Origin: Acidaminococcaceae bacterium
GTDB taxonomy: Bacteria > Bacillota > Negativicutes > Acidaminococcales > Acidaminococcaceae
DNA: 64,000 nt
Assembly: GCA_022484685.1 (NCBI GenBank)
Contig: JAKVKY010000003.1
Coordinates: 1-64,000 of the forward strand
Direction of reading: 5' to 3'
This document shows positions 2,543 through 56,044 of the stretch, piece after piece. The position numbers and the translations under genes were made by a program. A model generated the notes under the pieces. It was not told the origin of the DNA and did not search any database. It worked only from the letters and a program-made list of their open reading frames with translations. Position 1 is the stretch's first letter, and each line of letters opens with the position of its first letter.

Positions 2543-2959
2543 TTACGCTTTATGAGGAGCGCAGAGTTCCAGCAGGATGCCAACAGACTTCGGATGAACG
2601 AAAGCGATATCCATTCCGCCAGCGCCACCACGAGGAGCCTTATCAATCATGATGCCACCCTTTGCCTGAACGTCAGCAATAGCAGCCTTGATGTCGTCTA
2701 CGCGCAGAGCCATATGTTGAATGCCCTGGCCGTTCTTTGCGATGTACTTGCCAATTGCGCCGCTGCCATCAGCAGTGGTATCAACCAGCAGTTCCAGCAG
2801 GGTTTCACCAGCAGGAATGAAAACTGTCTTTACATGCTGAGAAGCAACTTCTTCTTCACCAGTGCAAGCCAGGCCCAGAACTTCGGTGTAGAACTTCTTG
2901 GACTTATCCAGATCTTTGCAAGCGATACCAACATGGTCAACACAAATTACTTTAAACAT
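2543..2959 (-). CDS. mce: Methylmalonyl-CoA epimerase
   Basis: This 138-residue vicinal-oxygen-chelate enzyme interconverts (R)- and (S)-methylmalonyl-CoA, linking the mutase product to the decarboxylase. The start chosen is ATG at 2957-2959 (MFKVICVDHVGIA) because AGGAGG stands just upstream; an in-frame start 16 codons earlier would add an unlikely basic leader. Likely metal and catalytic positions are His9, Glu56, His82 and Glu131 (LLELC), spaced as in the family. It lies between meaB and mmdA in the propionate operon. Confidence 0.92.
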   Translation of the reverse strand: MFKVICVDHVGIACKDLDKSKKFYTEVLGLACTGEEEVASQHVKTVFIPAGETLLELLVDTTADGSGAIGKYIAKNGQGIQHMALRVDDIKAAIADVQAKGGIMIDKAPRGGAGGMDIAFVHPKSVGILLELCAPHKA

Positions 2960-3013
2960 TGTAAATCTCCTCCTAAATTTTATATTTGGCGTGGTAATAA
3001 CCATCACTTGTGG

Positions 3014-3952
3014 TTATTTCAGCACCTTACCAACTATACCATCAACTACAGAATACGGATCAAGCTCACGACTTTGCAGTTTAGTAACTGTTTTCTCAAA
3101 GTCAGGGGTACGAACCACATTCTTATCAATATAACGGTTAACCCGGACATTGATCATATCCGTAATTTCTGACTTAATGCGTTTCTTACGGATTTCTGCC
3201 AGTTTGCCGGAATCAACCAGATATTTATGATGTTCTTCGATAGAATTTACAACCTCTTCTATACCTTCACCCCTGCTGGCAATGGTTCTATTGATTGGAG
3301 GTCTCCATTGTACATGCTCGGGATTTAATTCCAGCATCATTTCCATCTCAATATTCAGTTTATCTGTACCTTCGCGATCGGCTTTGTTGATTGTGATCAA
3401 ATCGCCAATCTCAAGGATACCTGCCTTAATCGCCTGGATATCGTCGCCCATACCGGGAATCACGACAACCATGGTTGTATCAGCAGTCTTTACGATATCA
3501 ACTTCGGATTGACCAACACCAACGGTCTCGACGATGATGACGTCCATACCGAAAGCATCCATGAGTTTTACAGCATCGCCGGCCTTCTGGGACAAACCGC
3601 CCAAACTGCCACGCGTAGCCATAGAGCGAATAAAGATGCCGTCATCGCCCATAAGATCCATCATTCTGATACGGTCACCGAGGATCGCGCCACCAGAATA
3701 AGGACTGGTAGGGTCAATGGCAACAATGCCAACAGTCTTACCGCGTTTGCGGTATTCTTTAGCAATGCCATCTGTCATGGTGCTCTTGCCGGCACCCGGA
3801 GGTCCGGTGATACCAATAACATAAGCGTTGCCGGTGTGCGGATAAATCTTGGTCATTATTTCAACGGCATTATCATACTCATTCTCGACTGCAGTAATGC
3901 CCTTGGCTAATGCCAGTCGTGAATGATTAAGTAAGTCTTCGACAATGTTCAT
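3014..3952 (-). CDS. meaB: MeaB/ArgK-type GTPase, methylmalonyl-CoA mutase chaperone
   Basis: This G3E-type GTPase (312 residues) protects and reloads adenosylcobalamin on methylmalonyl-CoA mutase. The P-loop GPPGAGKST is at 50-58, the ETVGVGQSE switch segment at 142-150 and the guanine-specificity NKAD at 189-192. The C-terminal third is helical and charged, as expected for the dimerisation arm. The start is uncertain: ATG at 3950-3952 has better spacing from an AAGGCGG site than the GTG four codons upstream (3962-3964). It directly follows the mutase genes in the transcript, which fits the chaperone role. Confidence 0.9.
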   Translation of the reverse strand: MNIVEDLLNHSRLALAKGITAVENEYDNAVEIMTKIYPHTGNAYVIGITGPPGAGKSTMTDGIAKEYRKRGKTVGIVAIDPTSPYSGGAILGDRIRMMDLMGDDGIFIRSMATRGSLGGLSQKAGDAVKLMDAFGMDVIIVETVGVGQSEVDIVKTADTTMVVVIPGMGDDIQAIKAGILEIGDLITINKADREGTDKLNIEMEMMLELNPEHVQWRPPINRTIASRGEGIEEVVNSIEEHHKYLVDSGKLAEIRKKRIKSEITDMINVRVNRYIDKNVVRTPDFEKTVTKLQSRELDPYSVVDGIVGKVLK

Positions 3953-4506: not shown

Positions 4507-6156
4507 TTATAATGCAGTATGAGCTTTGAATTCGCCGAATACTTTACGCATTACGCCGCAGATTTCGCCTTCGGTTGCATATGCGCGAACAGCTTCCAGG
4601 ATGAACGGAATCAGGTTGGTCTTCTCATCTTTATGGCAAGCATCTTCCAATGCGGCCAGAGTAGCCTTAACCTTAGCATTGTCGCGTTTTGCCTTAACAT
4701 CAGCAATCTTCTTAGCCTGCAGTTTGCCTACAGAACCATCTACGCGGAGCAGATTCTTCGGGGGTTCTTCTTCTTGAGTGAACTTGTTAACGCCAACGAT
4801 GATGCGTTTGCCTTGTTCAACATCCATCTGCCATTTATAAGCAGAATCCTGAATTTCTTTCTGGATGTAGCCCTTAGCAATTGCTTCAGGAGCGCCGCCC
4901 AGGTCATCAATCTTCTTAATGTAGTCCATAGCTTCTTTCTCGATCTTGTTGGTCAGAGCTTCTACATAGTAGGAACCGCCCAGAGGATCGATGGTGTCAG
5001 CCAGGCCGGACTCGTAAGCTACGATCTGTTGAGTACGCAGAGCGATGGTTACGGATTCAGTGGTCGGCAGAGCCAGAGCTTCATCCTTGGAGTTGGTGTG
5101 CAGGGACTGAGTGCCACCCATTACAGCTGCTGCAACCTGCAGAGCAACACGAACGATGTTGTTGTTAGGTTGTTGAGCGGTCAGCATAGAACCAGCGGTC
5201 TGAGTGTGGAAACGCAGCATCATGGATTTAGCTTTCTTTGCATGGAAACGATCCTTCATGATGCGAGCCCAGATACGACGGCTAGCACGATACTTGGCAA
5301 CTTCTTCCAATACGTTGTTATGAGCATTCCAGAAGAAGGACAGACGGCCTGCAAAGGCATCAATGTCCATACCAGCCTTCAGAGCTGCTTCTACGTAAGC
5401 AATACCATCAGCGATGGTGAATGCAATTTCCTGAGCAGCGGTGGAGCCGGCTTCACGAATGTGGTAACCGGAAATGGAAATGGTGTTCCACAGCGGTACG
5501 TTCTTGGAGCAATATTCGAAAATGTTGGTGATTAATCTCATAGAAGGTTTCGGCGGGAAAATGTACGTGCCACGAGCGCTGTATTCCTTCAGAATATCGT
5601 TCTGAATGGTACCACGGAGCTTAGCAGCAGGAACGCCTTGCTTCTCAGCAACTGCGATGTACATGCAGAGCAGTACAGATGCAGGAGCGTTAATCGTCAT
5701 GGAGGTGGAAACCTTGCTCAGGTCGATTTGGTTGAACAGAATTTCCATATCAGCCAGGGAGTCAATTGCTACGCCTACTTTACCAACTTCGCCTTCAGCC
5801 ATCGGATCGGTGGAATCATAACCAATCTGAGTGGGCAGGTCGAATGCGCAGGACAAGCCGCTGCCGCCGTTAGCTAACAGGTAACGATAACGTTTGTTGG
5901 ACTCTTCGGCAGTAGAGAAACCAGCGTACATACGCATGGTCCAGAAACGGCCACGATACATAGTGGGTTGAACGCCACGGGTGAAGGGGAATTCACCAGG
6001 GAATCCCAGATCCTTCTCGTAGTCAAAGCCTTCGATGTCCAGCGGGGTGTACAGTCTGTTAGGCTCGAGGTTAGGACGTTCAGGGAACTTAGCGCATTTT
6101 GCGTCAGCTTCATCCATGTACCTCTTAAATTCGGTCTTTAAAGTGTCATTTGCCAT
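4507..6156 (-). CDS. Methylmalonyl-CoA mutase, catalytic large subunit
   Basis: This TIM-barrel subunit (549 residues) carries out the adenosylcobalamin-dependent rearrangement of succinyl-CoA and (R)-methylmalonyl-CoA. The substrate-channel signature QPTMYRG...[14 protein letters not shown] is near residues 64-86. The Tyr in MYAGFS fits methylmalonyl-CoA rather than isobutyryl-CoA mutases, although I cannot prove specificity by eye. It lacks the C-terminal B12 domain, which is the next gene downstream. ATG at 6154-6156 is preferred to a TTG two codons earlier because AGGAGG is 8 nt from this ATG. Confidence 0.93.
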
Positions 6157-6410
6157 TCTCAAATCCTCCTTAAAAATATAATTTTTTCACAAACCGGTTT
6201 GGACAAACAAGTTTGTGGTGAGAGTACCGTCAGAGACGGATATATGGCTAAGCCACAATGGCTTCGTCAACTAATTTATCAGCTGCAGACAAGGCGCTGC
6301 AAACTGTTTAAACATGAGACGTGGCAGACCGGATTACCCGGTCTGCTACATCTATAGTTTAGTACTTTTTCACAAATTTTTCAAGCTATTTGTGAAGAGA
6401 GTGTGAAAAC
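6157..6410 (-). other. Structured 254-bp spacer between CoA-transferase and mutase genes
   Basis: No gene is seen here. The spacer holds several inverted repeats: CACAAAC/GTTTGTG (6188-6194 with 6211-6217), a 9-bp stem GCAGACCGG/CCGGTCTGC (6324-6332 with 6338-6346) and TTCACAAAT/ATTTGTGAA (6369-6377 with 6388-6396). None has a T-run typical of an intrinsic terminator on the minus strand, so they are more likely mRNA stability or processing elements within a continuous transcript. Confidence 0.5.
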
Positions 6411-7940
6411 TTATTTCTTTACCATGGTGCCGGTCTTAGCCAGGCGATCATACATATCGAATGCTTCGGTGAGGATGTGCGGGGTCTGGCTGTTGCCACA
6501 AGCCTTGCAAGCTCTCTCGAAGTAATCTTTCAGTTCGGGCTGGTATACCGGGTTAGCAATCTTATCAATAATCAACGGTGCTCTTTCCTTCGGGCTCAAG
6601 CCACGCAGGTCAGCTACGCCGCGCTCAGAAACGATGACATCAACGTCGTGTTCGCTGTGGTCGATATGGCTGCAGAACTTAACAACGGAGCTGATAGCAC
6701 CCTTCTTTGCCAGGCTGTTGGTGAAGAATACGCTCAGGAAGCTGCTACGAGCAAAGTCGCAGGAACCACCGATGCCGTTCATCAACTTGGTGCCGCAAAT
6801 ATGAGAGCTGTTAACGTTACCATAAATATCGCACTCAATAGCGGTATTCATAGCGATAACGCCGATACGACGTGCAACTTCAGGGTTGTTGGCAATTTCC
6901 TGAGGACGCAGGATCAGATGCTCTTTATATTTACCCAGGTTTGCATAGAATTTCTTTAAGCAATCAGGAGAAGGAGACAGAGCGGTGCCGGATGCTACGC
7001 GGAGCTTACCAGCATCAATCAGGTCAAACATACCATCCTGAATAACTTCAGTATATACGGTTAAATCTTCGAAGTCGGAATTTACCAGGCCGTTGATAAC
7101 AGCGTTGGCAACAGAGCCTACACCAGACTGCAGAGGCAGCAGGTTCTTAGGCATACGGCCGGCTTTAACTTCTGCTTTGAAGAAGTCAACCAGGTTCTCG
7201 CCCATGTGCTTAGCATCCTCATCAATGGCTGCCAGGCTACGGGTCTTATCGGTAACATCGCAAGGAACAACGGCTACAACCTTGTCCAGAGGGCAGGGGA
7301 TATAAGTCGTGCCAATACGATCTTCCGGTTTCTCAATCATAATAGGTTTACGATTGGGAGGATCCAGAGGTACGTAGCAATCATGCATACCTTCCAGTTC
7401 AACCGGTTGAGTGGTATTAACTTCGATGATAACTTGTTTTGCAGTTTGTACATAGGAAGGAGTATTGCCCAGAGAAGTAGTCGGAACGATACCGATCTGG
7501 CCATTGCCCAAATCCTTAATGACGCAGGCTTCAACGATAGCCAGGTCAATGCCGCGGCGGTTCTTTAAGAAGCCGTAACGGATATTTTGAGCTGCTGCGC
7601 TCAGATGGATATCAGTATAAGCGATTTCGCCAGCATTGATAGCATTACGCATATCTTTGTTGGTCTGGTAAGGCATACGGCTAGCTAATGCGCCAGCTTT
7701 GGCCAGTTCGCCATCCAGTTCAGGACCAACGGATGCACCGGTGCACAGATTAATCTTAATCTTAGCGCCTGCTCTAACTTTAGCAGCTAAAGCCAGGGGC
7801 ACTGCCTTAGGATAGCCGGACGGAGTAAATCCGGATACACCGACGTTCATGCCGTCTTTAATGTACTCTACTGCTTTTTCAGCAGTGGTGATTTTTGCAG
7901 CCGCAGCTGCGCTTTTCACGCGATCTTTAATGTCGATCAT
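6411..7940 (-). CDS. Succinyl-CoA:acetate/propionate CoA-transferase (acetyl-CoA hydrolase/transferase family)
   Basis: This 509-residue class I CoA-transferase of the Cat1/AarC type most likely moves CoA from propionyl-CoA or acetyl-CoA to succinate, feeding the mutase. Glu298 in YTEVIQD sits where the family keeps the glutamate that forms the CoA thioester. NGIGGSCDF in the C-terminal half is the glycine-rich signature. The start at 7938-7940 (MIDIKDRVK) follows an AGGAGG site and removes a 26-residue upstream extension unlike the family. It is the first gene of the propionate operon, behind a long structured leader. Whether acetate or propionate is the preferred partner cannot be told from sequence; the operon suggests propionate. 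Confidence 0.88.
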   Translation of the reverse strand: MIDIKDRVKSAAAAAKITTAEKAVEYIKDGMNVGVSGFTPSGYPKAVPLALAAKVRAGAKIKINLCTGASVGPELDGELAKAGALASRMPYQTNKDMRNAINAGEIAYTDIHLSAAAQNIRYGFLKNRRGIDLAIVEACVIKDLGNGQIGIVPTTSLGNTPSYVQTAKQVIIEVNTTQPVELEGMHDCYVPLDPPNRKPIMIEKPEDRIGTTYIPCPLDKVVAVVPCDVTDKTRSLAAIDEDAKHMGENLVDFFKAEVKAGRMPKNLLPLQSGVGSVANAVINGLVNSDFEDLTVYTEVIQDGMFDLIDAGKLRVASGTALSPSPDCLKKFYANLGKYKEHLILRPQEIANNPEVARRIGVIAMNTAIECDIYGNVNSSHICGTKLMNGIGGSCDFARSSFLSVFFTNSLAKKGAISSVVKFCSHIDHSEHDVDVIVSERGVADLRGLSPKERAPLIIDKIANPVYQPELKDYFERACKACGNSQTPHILTEAFDMYDRLAKTGTMVKK

Positions 7941-8133
7941 GTTTCTACATTCCTCCTTAAATATAAAATATGATAAACCAACACGGGACAAGGCCCGTGG
8001 CAAAACTAGCTCCTTCAAACAAACACCGCGTGGGAGGGTCTGTCAAAAGAGATTTTACCCAATAAAAAACCACGAAGTTACTATTACTTCGCATGTCAGG
8101 AGTTAAATGTGAACCGTTTTCAGGCTCACTACT
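7941..8133 (-). promoter_or_regulatory. Long structured 5' leader of the propionate operon
   Basis: The leader is about 185 nt from the predicted transcription start to the first ATG and has three stems in order of transcription. A 7-bp stem (8109-8115 with 8123-8129, one G-U pair) lies at or next to the 5' end. CGAAGT/ACTTCG (8073-8078 with 8086-8091) is followed by six U residues (8064-8069), like a weak terminator. CACGGG/CCCGTG (7982-7987 with 7994-7999) lies close to the ribosome-binding site. I do not recognise a known riboswitch and see no convincing leader peptide. It may be an attenuator or mRNA-stabilising leader. Confidence 0.5.
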
Positions 8134-8162
8134 ATAATAACAGCAAAACGGCAATAAATCAA
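8134..8162 (-). promoter_or_regulatory. Promoter of the propionate operon
   Basis: The minus strand reads TTGATT (8157-8162), a 17-nt spacer and TATTAT (8134-8139), close to the sigma-A consensus. It lies directly after the terminator of the upstream hydrogenase operon, so it should be the main start for the eight visible propionate genes. Confidence 0.75.
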
Positions 8163-8186
8163 GTTTAAATTTACATTTTAAAATTT

Positions 8187-8221
8187 AACGGCTTTCCTGA
8201 TGTTCATTCAGAAAAGCCGTT
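8187..8221 (-). terminator. Terminator of the hydrogenase operon
   Basis: AACGGCTTT (8187-8195) pairs with AAAGCCGTT (8213-8221). On the minus strand an A/T-rich tail follows. It lies just past the hydA stop and before the next promoter. Confidence 0.65.
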
Positions 8222-8241
8222 TGTCCATCGTACAGCGTACT

Positions 8242-9966
8242 TTATCTGTTTTGAGGAGAATAGTGCGTATGGAGTAGACGATGGGCCTTTTCCCCGAGAG
8301 GTTTTCCCATCCATGTATCATAAAGAATTTTTATCTCAGGATTTTCATGCGATTTGCGTATCTTACTGTTACTATCAATGCTATAAATGGCTTCCATACG
8401 TTTCTTTTTGATAGCCTTGCTGGTAGGAATCGGCTGGCCGCCGCCGCCAATACAACCACCCGGGCAAGCCATGACTTCGATAAAGTGATAGTTGGCCGTA
8501 CCGGCACGTACCCGGTCCATCATCTTCATGGCCGAACCCAAAGTGTTGCAGACGGCAATCCTTATTTCTTTGCCCGCAATATTCAGGGTTGCTTCCTTGG
8601 TTTCCTCGAATCCACGTACAGCTTTATAATCTACCTGTTGAATATCCTGACCGGTCACAACATCCGCCACGGTCCGGAGGGCTGCCTCCATCACGCCGCC
8701 GGTAGTACCAAAGATGGCACCGGCACCGCTGCCGTAGCCCAGAGGTGAATCAAACTCCGCATCCGGCAGTCTGGTAAAATCAATGCCGTCTTCGCGCAAC
8801 ATCTTGCCCAGTTCCCTGGTAGTGATAACGATATCCACATCCTGGAACCCGCTATCACGCAGCTGCGGCCGTACACATTCCGCCTTTTTGGCAATACAGG
8901 GCATCACAGAGACGCTGACAATCTTGGCCGGATTAACATTGGCTTTCTCCGCCCAATAAGTTTTAATGACGGCGCCAAACATGCCTTGCGGCGACTTGGC
9001 AGTAGACAAATGCGGCAACAAATCCGGATATTTAAGTTCACACATATTGACCCAGCCCGGACTGCAGCTGGTAACCATCGGCAGCACGCCGCCGTGTTGC
9101 AGACGGTCCACAAACTCATGACCTTCTTCCATGATGGTCAGGTCGGCACTAAAATTAGTATCAAAAACTTTATCAAAGCCCATGGCTTTTAAGCCTGCCA
9201 CCATCTTACCGGTAACAATGCTTCCGGGAGCCAGGCCCACTTCTTCGCCTAATGCTACCCGGACGGAAGGTGCCACCTGGCAGACTACAATCTTATCCGG
9301 GTCATGAATAGCATCCCAGACCCGCTCGGTGTCATCTTTTTCCATGATGGCCGCCGTCGGACAAACTGCAGAACACTGACCGCAGAAAGAGCAAGCCACT
9401 TTAGACAAATCCTGTTCAAAAGCTGCCGCTACCATGGCGTGGAAACCACGTCTGGCAAAACTGTACACGTTCATGCCCTGTACATCACGGCACATCCTGA
9501 TGCAGCGTCCGCACAGGATGCATTTTTCCTGGTCGCGTACCAGGCAGGGATTACTATCGTCCAGGGTATATGTCTTACGTTCGCCCCAATCGAAACGATG
9601 GTTCCGTACATCCAGATCCGCTGCGATCCTTTGCAGTTCGCAGTCGCCGCTTTTACGGCAGGACAGGCATCCTTTCGGATGGCTGGCCAGGAGCAGTTCT
9701 ACTACCAGACGGCGGGCTTTGCGCACCTGCGCCGTGTTGGTCTGCACCACCATGCCTTCTGCCACAGGGTAGCAGCAGGAAGCAACCAGGCCTCTGGCGC
9801 CGGTAGCTTCTACCACGCACAGACGGCAGGCGCCCTCCGGTTTTAAATCCGGATGATAACATAATGTGGGAATATGAATACCGGCAGATTTGGCCGCTTC
9901 CAAAATCGTAGCGTTCTTGGGGGCCTGAACCTTCACACCGTTAATCGTCAAATTAACCATTTCCAT
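8242..9966 (-). CDS. hydA: [FeFe]-hydrogenase catalytic subunit, NAD-linked bifurcating type (HydA/HndD)
   Basis: This 574-residue subunit carries the H-cluster that makes or splits H2. It has an N-terminal [2Fe-2S] domain (Cys36, 47, 50, 64), a His/Cys-ligated cluster region (about 96-109), two [4Fe-4S] motifs (Cys149-159 and Cys192-202) and the H-cluster domain: L1 TSCSPGW (299-305), L2 MPCIAKKAE (355-363) and L3 MACPGGCIGGGGQP (499-512). A serine follows the first L1 Cys where many enzymes have TSCCPxW. The start at 9964-9966 is 11 nt from AGGGGG; a GTG four codons earlier is too close to it. NuoE- and NuoF-like subunits are encoded upstream, so this is the catalytic subunit of a multimeric NAD- and ferredoxin-linked enzyme. 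Confidence 0.92.
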   Translation of the reverse strand: MEMVNLTINGVKVQAPKNATILEAAKSAGIHIPTLCYHPDLKPEGACRLCVVEATGARGLVASCCYPVAEGMVVQTNTAQVRKARRLVVELLLASHPKGCLSCRKSGDCELQRIAADLDVRNHRFDWGERKTYTLDDSNPCLVRDQEKCILCGRCIRMCRDVQGMNVYSFARRGFHAMVAAAFEQDLSKVACSFCGQCSAVCPTAAIMEKDDTERVWDAIHDPDKIVVCQVAPSVRVALGEEVGLAPGSIVTGKMVAGLKAMGFDKVFDTNFSADLTIMEEGHEFVDRLQHGGVLPMVTSCSPGWVNMCELKYPDLLPHLSTAKSPQGMFGAVIKTYWAEKANVNPAKIVSVSVMPCIAKKAECVRPQLRDSGFQDVDIVITTRELGKMLREDGIDFTRLPDAEFDSPLGYGSGAGAIFGTTGGVMEAALRTVADVVTGQDIQQVDYKAVRGFEETKEATLNIAGKEIRIAVCNTLGSAMKMMDRVRAGTANYHFIEVMACPGGCIGGGGQPIPTSKAIKKKRMEAIYSIDSNSKIRKSHENPEIKILYDTWMGKPLGEKAHRLLHTHYSPQNR

Positions 9967-53484: not shown

Positions 53485-54585
53485 CTATCTTGTCGAAGCC
53501 GGCATGCCTAAAGCTTGCTTCATTGCCTGTTTATTAATATACATGCGTTTATCTGCCTGGTCCATCAGCTGTTTAATATTAGCTCCGGGAAACTCGCTAC
53601 TCATGGCATGTCCTGCCGCAAAACTTATTTTTACACCTGCAGGTAAGTCCTTTTCTGCCTGAGCAGCATATCTGGCTAAACTTTGTAAAAATTCCCGGCA
53701 CGCCACGGCATCCATGCCGGTACCCACAGCCACAAATTCATCGCCGCCGCAGCGACCTGTAAAAATATGCGCCGGTGCCGCCTGTTTTAACGCCCCGGCA
53801 AACCCGGCAATTAATTTATCTCCGGCTTCGTGACCAAACTTATCGTTCGTAGGTTTTAAGTTATTTAAGTCAAACATAAAACAAGTAAGTAAAATATTGT
53901 CCGCGATCGGGTCAGGATTGAGCAACCGTTCCTTACAGGCACGGTTATTACTAAGACCCGTAGCCTGATCAAGATACGCCAGCGCGCTCAAAGCCGAGTT
54001 CTCCATATGCAGGTCGCGCATCTTCTTCAACTTCGTGGCATAAATAAAGCCCAGCATAATAAAGATTATCAGGTCCAGAACTTCCAGGGTCTTAATTTTC
54101 AGGACGATGGTATCGATATAATCCTCGGCGGCATCCGCCGTAGCATCTGCGAACTTATAATAAGTTTCACTGGCGGCATACAACTGTGGCAACAAATTTT
54201 TATCCTGACGGTAGGCATAAATTATTTTTTTCAGTTCCTGCCACTGTACCTGCTGCGCTGCTAAAAGTTCATTATAAGTATCATCATCTATCTGATGAAT
54301 GCCTAAATTACCTTTGCCGCTCCGTAGTTCTGTCATGATGGCATCCAACTGCCCCATTAACTGGTCGTCCCTGTAACCGGCGATTTCGTTCTTCACCAGC
54401 CTTTGCGAACCACCCCTAAGCCGACCGGCATAGTTAATCAAGCTGCCGTTACCCTGGATTAAGTTAACATTCAAAATCAGGAATAAAGTTAAGATAGCCA
54501 GGACGCAAACTAAAACCATCCTGATCACATCCTGCTTATTATCTTTTCCCTGGTTCAGAATCTCTTGCCGGTCATCATTATTCAT
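53485..54585 (-). CDS. Membrane-bound diguanylate cyclase with PilJ-like sensor region
   Basis: This 366-residue protein has TM1 (about 22-42), an extracytoplasmic helical region (43-167), TM2 (about 168-184) and a cytoplasmic GGDEF domain (about 200-355). The catalytic loop is an intact GGDEF (280-284), so it should make c-di-GMP from two GTP. The inhibitory RxxD site expected just before it is absent. The periplasmic part begins INYAGRLRGGSQRL, resembling the PilJ/nitrate-sensor type helical bundle. It is divergent from a channel-like gene 234 nt away. The signal sensed is unknown. Confidence 0.88.
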   Translation of the reverse strand: MNNDDRQEILNQGKDNKQDVIRMVLVCVLAILTLFLILNVNLIQGNGSLINYAGRLRGGSQRLVKNEIAGYRDDQLMGQLDAIMTELRSGKGNLGIHQIDDDTYNELLAAQQVQWQELKKIIYAYRQDKNLLPQLYAASETYYKFADATADAAEDYIDTIVLKIKTLEVLDLIIFIMLGFIYATKLKKMRDLHMENSALSALAYLDQATGLSNNRACKERLLNPDPIADNILLTCFMFDLNNLKPTNDKFGHEAGDKLIAGFAGALKQAAPAHIFTGRCGGDEFVAVGTGMDAVACREFLQSLARYAAQAEKDLPAGVKISFAAGHAMSSEFPGANIKQLMDQADKRMYINKQAMKQALGMPASTR

Positions 54586-54742: not shown

Positions 54743-54819
54743 AAATTTAATAAAGCTTAAGGAACTTATTCATACTTCTGCTTTCCAGTCATAGAAAATC
54801 TATTTTGAGGAGCGATACC

Positions 54820-55950
54820 ATGAAAGAATTATTTCTACCTTTCTTTGCTAAATTAACGGAAGCCCAGCGCACTAACATTAAAAATATCGCCTTATTATTT
54901 ACCGTCATCTGCTGCGTTATCCTTGGCTATTTTTCCTACATGCTTGATACCGATATCAGCCATAGCGAAAGTTCCTGGAAAAGAAAGATGAACACCGAGC
55001 CCCAGGTTGCTGCCGATCTGCAGGTAGTCAGTAAAGATGCTACCAAGGTTTTATGCGGTACTTATGTGGAGGGCATTCATGATATCGATATGGCTCACGG
55101 TGGTTACTGGGTCAACTTTATGACCTGGTTCCGCTGGGATGGCGATGAAATTCAGGATATGGCCGACCATTTTCGTATTTACCGCGGCGTTATCAAGCAA
55201 AAAAGCGTCGTTAAAAGTTATAAATCCGGCAATACCCATTACCAGTTAGTCCGCCTGGAAGCCATTGTGGATAAAAGTTTTGCTACCAAACGTTTCCCTC
55301 TGGACGGTCAGCAGTTTGTCTTTTATCTGGAGCCTTTTTACACGGCCAAGCGCGTGGTCCTGGTTGCCGATACTAAGGAAAGCAATGTGAACCGCAATCT
55401 GGATATTGACGGTTACCGTTTTGAAAATAGTATGGTCAGTACCTTTGCTTATGAATATCGGAATACCCGGGGAGACGTGGAACTGGAAAAGTCCACGGAT
55501 AAAAATATCGTGACCGAACTGGCCACGGGGGTCCGGGTAAAACGCGATGGATTTGGTCTATACGCTAAATGTTTTATCGCACTTTATGGTTGCATCATTT
55601 GGGCTCTGCTCACGCTCTTCATTAATATTTACCATCACGTCGACCCCCTGGAAATGATTCCGGAAGCACTGTTCGGCTGCGTAGCCAATATCATGGTCGG
55701 TGCCAGCCTGCTGCCCGAAGCTCTGGATATGGGCCTTTTGGAATATGTAAATATCTGGGGCATCCTCACCATCCTGACCGCCACCGTGGTCATCATTAAT
55801 GTCAATGCTATCCGTCATCGTGAGGCTTTGCCGGATGGTACCTGTTATTATGCCGCTTCTTTTGGTCGCGTGATGTTCTACCTCATCACCTTATTTGCGA
55901 TCGTTGGTAACCTGCTGTTGCCTTTAATAGCCTATAATCGTCAGTTCTAA
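54820..55950 (+). CDS. Putative pentameric ligand-gated ion channel-like membrane protein
   Basis: This 376-residue protein has one N-terminal helix (about 23-41), an extracytoplasmic beta-rich region (about 45-245) and four C-terminal helices (about 248-270, 277-298, 308-330, 349-371). The pattern is that of Cys-loop/pLGIC channels with an added N-terminal anchor. The outer domain carries WVNFMTWFRW (97-106) and, in the Cys-loop position, FPLDGQQFVFYLEPF (159-173), close to the FPFDxQQFV-x-LEPF of the bacterial channel ELIC as I recall it. The first helix of the pore part lacks the usual preceding Pro. ATG at 54820 follows GAGGAG; a TTG five codons earlier is less likely. It could instead be an unrelated membrane protein with a similar layout. 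Confidence 0.55.
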   Translation: MKELFLPFFAKLTEAQRTNIKNIALLFTVICCVILGYFSYMLDTDISHSESSWKRKMNTEPQVAADLQVVSKDATKVLCGTYVEGIHDIDMAHGGYWVNFMTWFRWDGDEIQDMADHFRIYRGVIKQKSVVKSYKSGNTHYQLVRLEAIVDKSFATKRFPLDGQQFVFYLEPFYTAKRVVLVADTKESNVNRNLDIDGYRFENSMVSTFAYEYRNTRGDVELEKSTDKNIVTELATGVRVKRDGFGLYAKCFIALYGCIIWALLTLFINIYHHVDPLEMIPEALFGCVANIMVGASLLPEALDMGLLEYVNIWGILTILTATVVIINVNAIRHREALPDGTCYYAASFGRVMFYLITLFAIVGNLLLPLIAYNRQF

Positions 55951-55997
55951 AATTAATTTTCTTCCTAAAGACAAAACACCCGGTGACTAAACGGACA

Positions 55998-56030
55998 AAG
56001 GTCCTGCTAACAGTCAGTTAGCAGGACCTT
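55998..56030. terminator. Bidirectional terminator between the channel-like gene and hisIE
   Basis: A 14-bp perfect stem (55998-56011 with 56017-56030, 5-nt loop) is followed by TTATTTTAATT on the plus strand and TGTCCGTTT on the minus strand. It ends the channel-like gene and probably the his operon. Confidence 0.85.
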
Positions 56031-56044
56031 TTATTTTAATTCTC

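Follow-up and report, generated by a model that had tools for sequence, protein, structure and literature searches.

The window analyzed here is a stretch of 64,000 nucleotides from an Acidaminococcaceae bacterium (contig JAKVKY010000003.1). At 54820..55950 on its forward strand it carries a gene for an anchored subunit of a pentameric ligand-gated ion channel (pLGIC), as assigned from the open reading frame, its homologues, an AlphaFold2 model, and profile and fold matches. The frame runs from an ATG at 54820 to a stop codon at 55948-55950 and encodes 376 amino acids. A Shine-Dalgarno sequence, GAGGAG, can be read directly at 54807..54812 (+), and because it sits 7 nt 5' of this ATG, the ATG is likely the true start rather than the TTG at 54805 that a mechanical reading gives. 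On the 3' side, a consensus match at 55997..56031 (+) marks a terminator-like hairpin with 15 pairs and a T-rich tail, a type with three occurrences in the stretch where 1.8 would be expected. With its Shine-Dalgarno sequence, its terminator and intact homologues elsewhere, the frame is a real gene, and it looks monocistronic. The genome holds a single copy of it in a search at E values up to 10, at a genome completeness of 82%. Upstream and divergent to the gene lies a diguanylate cyclase with a weak match to PilJ-type sensors (53485-54585, reverse strand), and the opposite-strand genes downstream can be read from their sequences as histidine biosynthesis genes. This neighborhood was rejected as a guide to function: neither the diguanylate cyclase, nor a tRNA-Ala, nor the histidine biosynthesis genes were found beside the closest homologue (L002/L004).

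Searched as a single sequence, the 376-residue protein matched nothing in Pfam or NCBIfam, and its sole match in the PDB, ELIC, was not significant (E 0.42). Among 100 related genomes, intact homologues were present in the same bacterial family (L002, 54% identity) and the same class (L003, 29% identity), and further intact homologues with 22-54% identity were found in other genomes; additional genomes of Atopobiaceae and Enterococcaceae also have them. Since intact homologues occur in related as well as in other genomes, the frame did not arise by chance. Three profiles were made from such sequences: A1 with three rows, A2 with 14 rows, and A3 with the window protein's own clade, free of any member with a signal peptide. 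A copy split over two frames (L021) and a decayed copy with stop codons (genome G936) were left out of the alignments and not mended. Against the PDB, the 60 matches listed for A1 were pLGICs only (best E value 2e-6). With A2, a GLIC-glycine receptor chimera was matched at 1.4e-19 and GLIC itself at ~2e-17, and the match covered profile positions 66-365, that is the outer domain and M1-M4. Here, too, the matches listed were all pLGICs. A3 served as a control against signal borrowed from the cyanobacterial L022, a plain-pLGIC-like sequence with a signal peptide; among the matches listed it gave GLIC-type entries only, with a best E value of 2e-5.

A scan of genome contigs with one sequence found no relative, and with A1 it returned 20 loci spanning Bacillota, Actinomycetota, Pseudomonadota, Myxococcota, Campylobacterota and one cyanobacterium. 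Among relatives, E values of 7e-5 were reached with Pfam Neur_chan_LBD and of 6e-7 with NCBIfam LIC. Some homologues match NCBIfam NF033918 (LGIC_1), TIGR00860 (LIC) or Pfam PF02931/PF02932, most strongly the signal-peptide member L022 (5e-18), but the curated cut-off was reached by no scanned sequence, and the window protein itself matches none of these models.

From the sequence, the earlier note on this DNA had proposed one N-terminal helix, a beta-rich outer domain and four C-terminal helices, and the AlphaFold2 model of the monomer (pLDDT 86.5, pTM 0.78) reproduces this layout, with a helix at residues 14-56, strands at 75-242 and helices at 245-271, 276-295, 306-335 and 343-373. All parts are encoded on the forward strand. 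The outer, ligand-binding-type beta sandwich (residues 75-242, 55042..55545) is seen in the model, the profile and the fold match; M1 (residues 245-271, 55552..55632) and M2 with the pre-M2 Asp (residues 275-295, 55642..55704) are placed by model and alignment, and M3 (residues 306-335, 55735..55824) and M4 (residues 343-373, 55846..55938) by the model. With this model, Foldseek returned GLIC as top match (E 3.7e-17) and VIA-align gave a Z score of 22.7 and an rmsd of 2.4 over 278 residues (model 72-372); in both searches only pLGICs were among the matches listed. Neither outcome that the note had named as a refutation was seen: the model contains a beta sandwich with an M1-M4 bundle, and among those matches there is no unrelated membrane family. 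The Paramagnetospirillum member L012 was also modeled and shows this layout too, its anchor helix spanning residues 11-53.

GLIC, the proton-gated pLGIC of Gloeobacter (PDB 3eam and others), has the same order of outer beta sandwich and M1-M4, the best profile score among natural proteins and the top fold match, and has the Pro-loop, the pre-M1 Arg and the M2-M3 Pro in common with the window protein. However, identity is ~16%, GLIC has no N-terminal membrane anchor, its segment around WiPeIrf, which lies between beta2 and the Pro-loop, is unmatched in the family profile, and the window protein has Ala and Phe where GLIC has its M1 Pro and 9' Ile. The amine-gated ELIC of Erwinia (PDB 2vl0), also without a membrane anchor, has a Pro-loop (FPxDxQQFVxxLEPF) nearly identical to that of the window protein. 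A likeness to ELIC in particular, as had been claimed, did not hold: the single-sequence E value was 0.42 only, and GLIC outscores ELIC in the profiles. The likeness is to pLGICs in general, and a special kinship to ELIC was rejected. An addition before the ligand-binding domain is also known from DeCLIC and further bacterial pLGICs (PMC9897478, PMC549065); theirs consists of soluble periplasmic domains, whereas the window protein is predicted to carry a membrane helix preceded by a cytoplasmic tail.

The residues by which pLGICs are recognized are largely in place. The stretch FPLDGQQFVFYLEPF (residues 159-173), which had been noticed at the Cys-loop position, indeed falls there: in sequence and profile alignment, and by comparison with the table in PMC4795631, its motif FPLD (F159, P160, L161 and D162; 55294..55305, +) occupies the Pro-loop position between beta6 and beta7. 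Other members vary at this motif (VPIE, FPMG, LSLE). The Pro-loop proline was described as “absolutely conserved” by Jaiteh et al. (PMC4795631); LSLE, without the proline, is found in the Sulfuricurvum member (L016 5818-6900). WFRW, earlier placed in the strand region, lies on beta2 in the model and alignment (residues 103-106, 55126..55137, +), with W103, F104 and W106 invariant in A2. The pre-M1 Arg242 (55543..55545, +), invariant across the 14 rows of A2, and Pro299 of the M2-M3 loop (55714..55716, +) were identified from the alignment and the same published table, and Y199 on beta9 is paired with GLIC W160 by the profile alignment. The Pro-loop Pro and Asp, the beta9 aromatic, the pre-M1 Arg and the M2-M3 Pro all agree with Table 1 of PMC4795631. 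Sequence, fold and conserved coupling residues together place the protein in the pLGIC superfamily.

The pre-M1 region had been called unusual, and this stands in part. The conserved Arg is kept; the unusual features are an M1 without its proline, whose position (Arg242+12) is taken by Ala254, an invariant Lys250 in M1, and Pro276 instead of a basic residue at M2 0', where proteobacterial members have Arg. Both missing residues are frequent rather than defining, being present in 77% (M1 proline) and 79% (0' Arg/Lys) of known pLGICs (PMC4795631). Counting prime numbers back from Pro299 as 23', the M2 rings are D275 (-1'), E278 (2'), E282 (6') and F285 (9'). Positions -2' to 0' read VDP in most members of the window protein's clade and GPR or DR in proteobacterial members. 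Among the aligned sequences, acidic residues at 2' and 6' together are restricted to the window protein and the upstream Atopobiaceae tandem copies (Asp in the latter), and because of this restriction a homomeric pore so charged is unusual. Judged from the pore rings by analogy with known pLGICs, the channel is probably cation-selective.

The N-terminal helix (residues 14-56, 54859..54987, +), seen in model and sequence, has a hydrophobic core at residues 23-41 (54886-54942) that is predicted to anchor the protein in the membrane. Bacterial pLGICs are composed of a signal peptide, a ligand-binding domain and a four-helix domain, some with soluble domains in between (Tasneem et al., PMC549065). 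In the window protein, a charged tail of 22 residues precedes the core, no good signal-peptidase site is found nearby, and the helix runs on to residue 56; with the same helix in L012, the idea that a membrane anchor replaces the signal peptide is supported. Across the anchored members, tails of 9 to ~100 residues precede the hydrophobic core (~80-100 in Atopobiaceae); some proteobacterial ones have signal-peptidase-like sites, where cleavage may occur, and L022 and L028, related but outside the clade, have ordinary signal peptides. In a tree of the shared core, a branch with support values of 82/91 separates the anchored members from the rest, which is moderate, not decisive, support for a single group. 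The clade seems to have exchanged a removable signal peptide for an additional transmembrane helix, and we infer that the anchor stays uncleaved. In known pLGICs the first strand begins close to the top of the outer domain, and the linker of ~30 residues (42-74), mostly helical in the model, would need to span the distance from the membrane to this strand.

Tandem pairs occur in several relatives. The neighbors lie on the same strand, 1 to ~105 bp apart. One Atopobiaceae MAG has two anchored copies on each of two contigs (L006 100-978 and 1083-2366; L019 4367-5638 and 5740-7032), which may be strain variants and were counted once. Sterolibacterium (L018) also has two, the upstream one truncated by the contig end. 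In the upstream Atopobiaceae copies Ser replaces the pre-M1 Arg, and Asp is present at 2' and 6'. In L015 (523-2664, then 2728-3831), and likewise in L013, the gene immediately 5' of an anchored pLGIC, read in the same direction, encodes a dCache protein whose C-terminus is pLGIC-like (E 2e-7). Since a single-sequence PDB search with this dCache protein matched essentially the Cache part, its pLGIC half rests on the profile match, a YPLE loop and a pre-M1 Arg. Such pairs with specialized subunits hint at heteromeric bacterial pLGICs.

According to our preferred reading, which we hold with good confidence, the gene encodes a divergent bacterial pLGIC subunit that would form an externally gated, probably cation-selective homopentamer and retain its anchor. 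Five copies of the product of the one gene would assemble as a ring within the cytoplasmic membrane, with the N-terminal helices kept in the membrane and the beta-sandwich domains standing outside. A ligand or ion would bind at the subunit interfaces of these domains, and the movement would be relayed through the contact between Pro-loop Asp162 and pre-M1 Arg242 and through the M2-M3 loop (Pro299). The five M2 helices would then open a pore closed by the ring of Phe285 (9') and lined by Asp275, Glu278 and Glu282, acids that point to cation selectivity. Conduction of ions upon an outside signal is likely on this evidence. More tentatively, and with considerable doubt, we propose a wider scheme: a bacterial clade of signal-anchored five-helix pLGICs, of which several lineages would be heteromeric, pairing either a subunit with the coupling Arg and an Arg-less subunit with acidic 2'/6', or an anchored subunit and a dCache protein, while the window protein would be a single-gene form with an acid-lined, possibly divalent-selective pore.

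Two other readings keep the homology and differ in what the subunit does or how it matures. The protein could be a pLGIC homologue that works only with another subunit, or a non-conducting sensor, having kept the fold and outer domain and forming no pore alone. The specialized tandem subunits within the clade, the loss of both the M1 proline and the 0' basic residue, and the sharing of the acidic 2'/6' pair only with upstream copies devoid of the pre-M1 Arg are what such a protein might display. However, it is found as a single copy (E up to 10, genome 82% complete), and its coupling pathway retains Pro-loop Asp, pre-M1 Arg and M2-M3 Pro, and we regard this reading as unlikely. An ordinary signal-peptide pLGIC, whose N-terminal helix is cleaved to leave four helices, appears just as unlikely. 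A hydrophobic segment at the N-terminus is normal for bacterial pLGICs (PMC549065), and AXA-like sites are present close to it in a few members, but the 22-residue tail, the helix predicted to residue 56 and the want of a good cleavage site in the window protein argue for retention, as do the ~80-100 residues before the segment in Atopobiaceae members; moreover, the outgroups L022 and L028 display what a true signal peptide looks like in this set.

That an unrelated membrane protein merely resembles a pLGIC is far less probable still. The single sequence has no significant match, which speaks for this reading, but independent profiles, the fold match and residues conserved across the family contradict it.

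The occurrence of a pLGIC in a presumed gut-type anaerobe, earlier regarded as novel, is not new in itself: Jaiteh et al. (2016, PMC4795631) included an Erysipelotrichaceae gut isolate. They reported pLGICs in 61 further bacterial genera, and an earlier list could include some of the present sequences as pLGICs. What is new is the N-terminal membrane helix in place of a signal peptide, that is an anchored variant within the superfamily. In the openly readable papers searched, no five-helix or signal-anchored pLGIC was found. Jaiteh and co-workers, who omitted N-terminal regions, cautioned that profile searches may miss divergent pLGICs, and the anchored clade is an example, being below the curated Pfam and NCBIfam cut-offs, equipped with a fifth membrane helix and scattered over at least five phyla. 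The window protein is distantly related to the ion channels of nerve receptors (nicotinic, GABA-A and glycine receptors), and standard domain libraries fail to recognize it. Five-helix subunits would alter how the outer domain is held over the membrane, and the tandem pairs make heteromeric bacterial pLGICs a testable question in simple systems.

The anchored branch is rare and patchy. The gene is present in 4 of 380 genomes of the class, in one of 398 from a sample of the phylum (that of the window itself), in 7 of 140 from the family of the Atopobiaceae MAG and in 6 of 105 from that of Enterococcus devriesei, one of them decayed. This last copy (L046 and L047, genome G936) is a remnant with stop codons. 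The patchy presence suggests horizontal transfer and loss. A phage origin is unsupported, as none was found in viral contigs or phages. More distant relatives, outside the anchored clade, are carried by Azospirillum and Streptomyces plasmids.

A similar small membrane protein of the WLDTTGTAFAA type, with no Pfam family above cut-off, lies 3' of the pLGIC gene in three Clostridia MAGs (L007 7971-8594, L008 8572-9171, L021 8437-9060). In L021 the pLGIC gene itself is in two frames (6040-6974 and 7731-8471), and an Ion_trans-type channel gene (Pfam 2.9e-24) is close downstream on the same strand. On plasmid pAB510b of Azospirillum sp. B510 (L028 4779-10702), a pLGIC-like gene is closely followed on the same strand by genes for CheW, a four-helix-bundle MCP and an MscS family channel.
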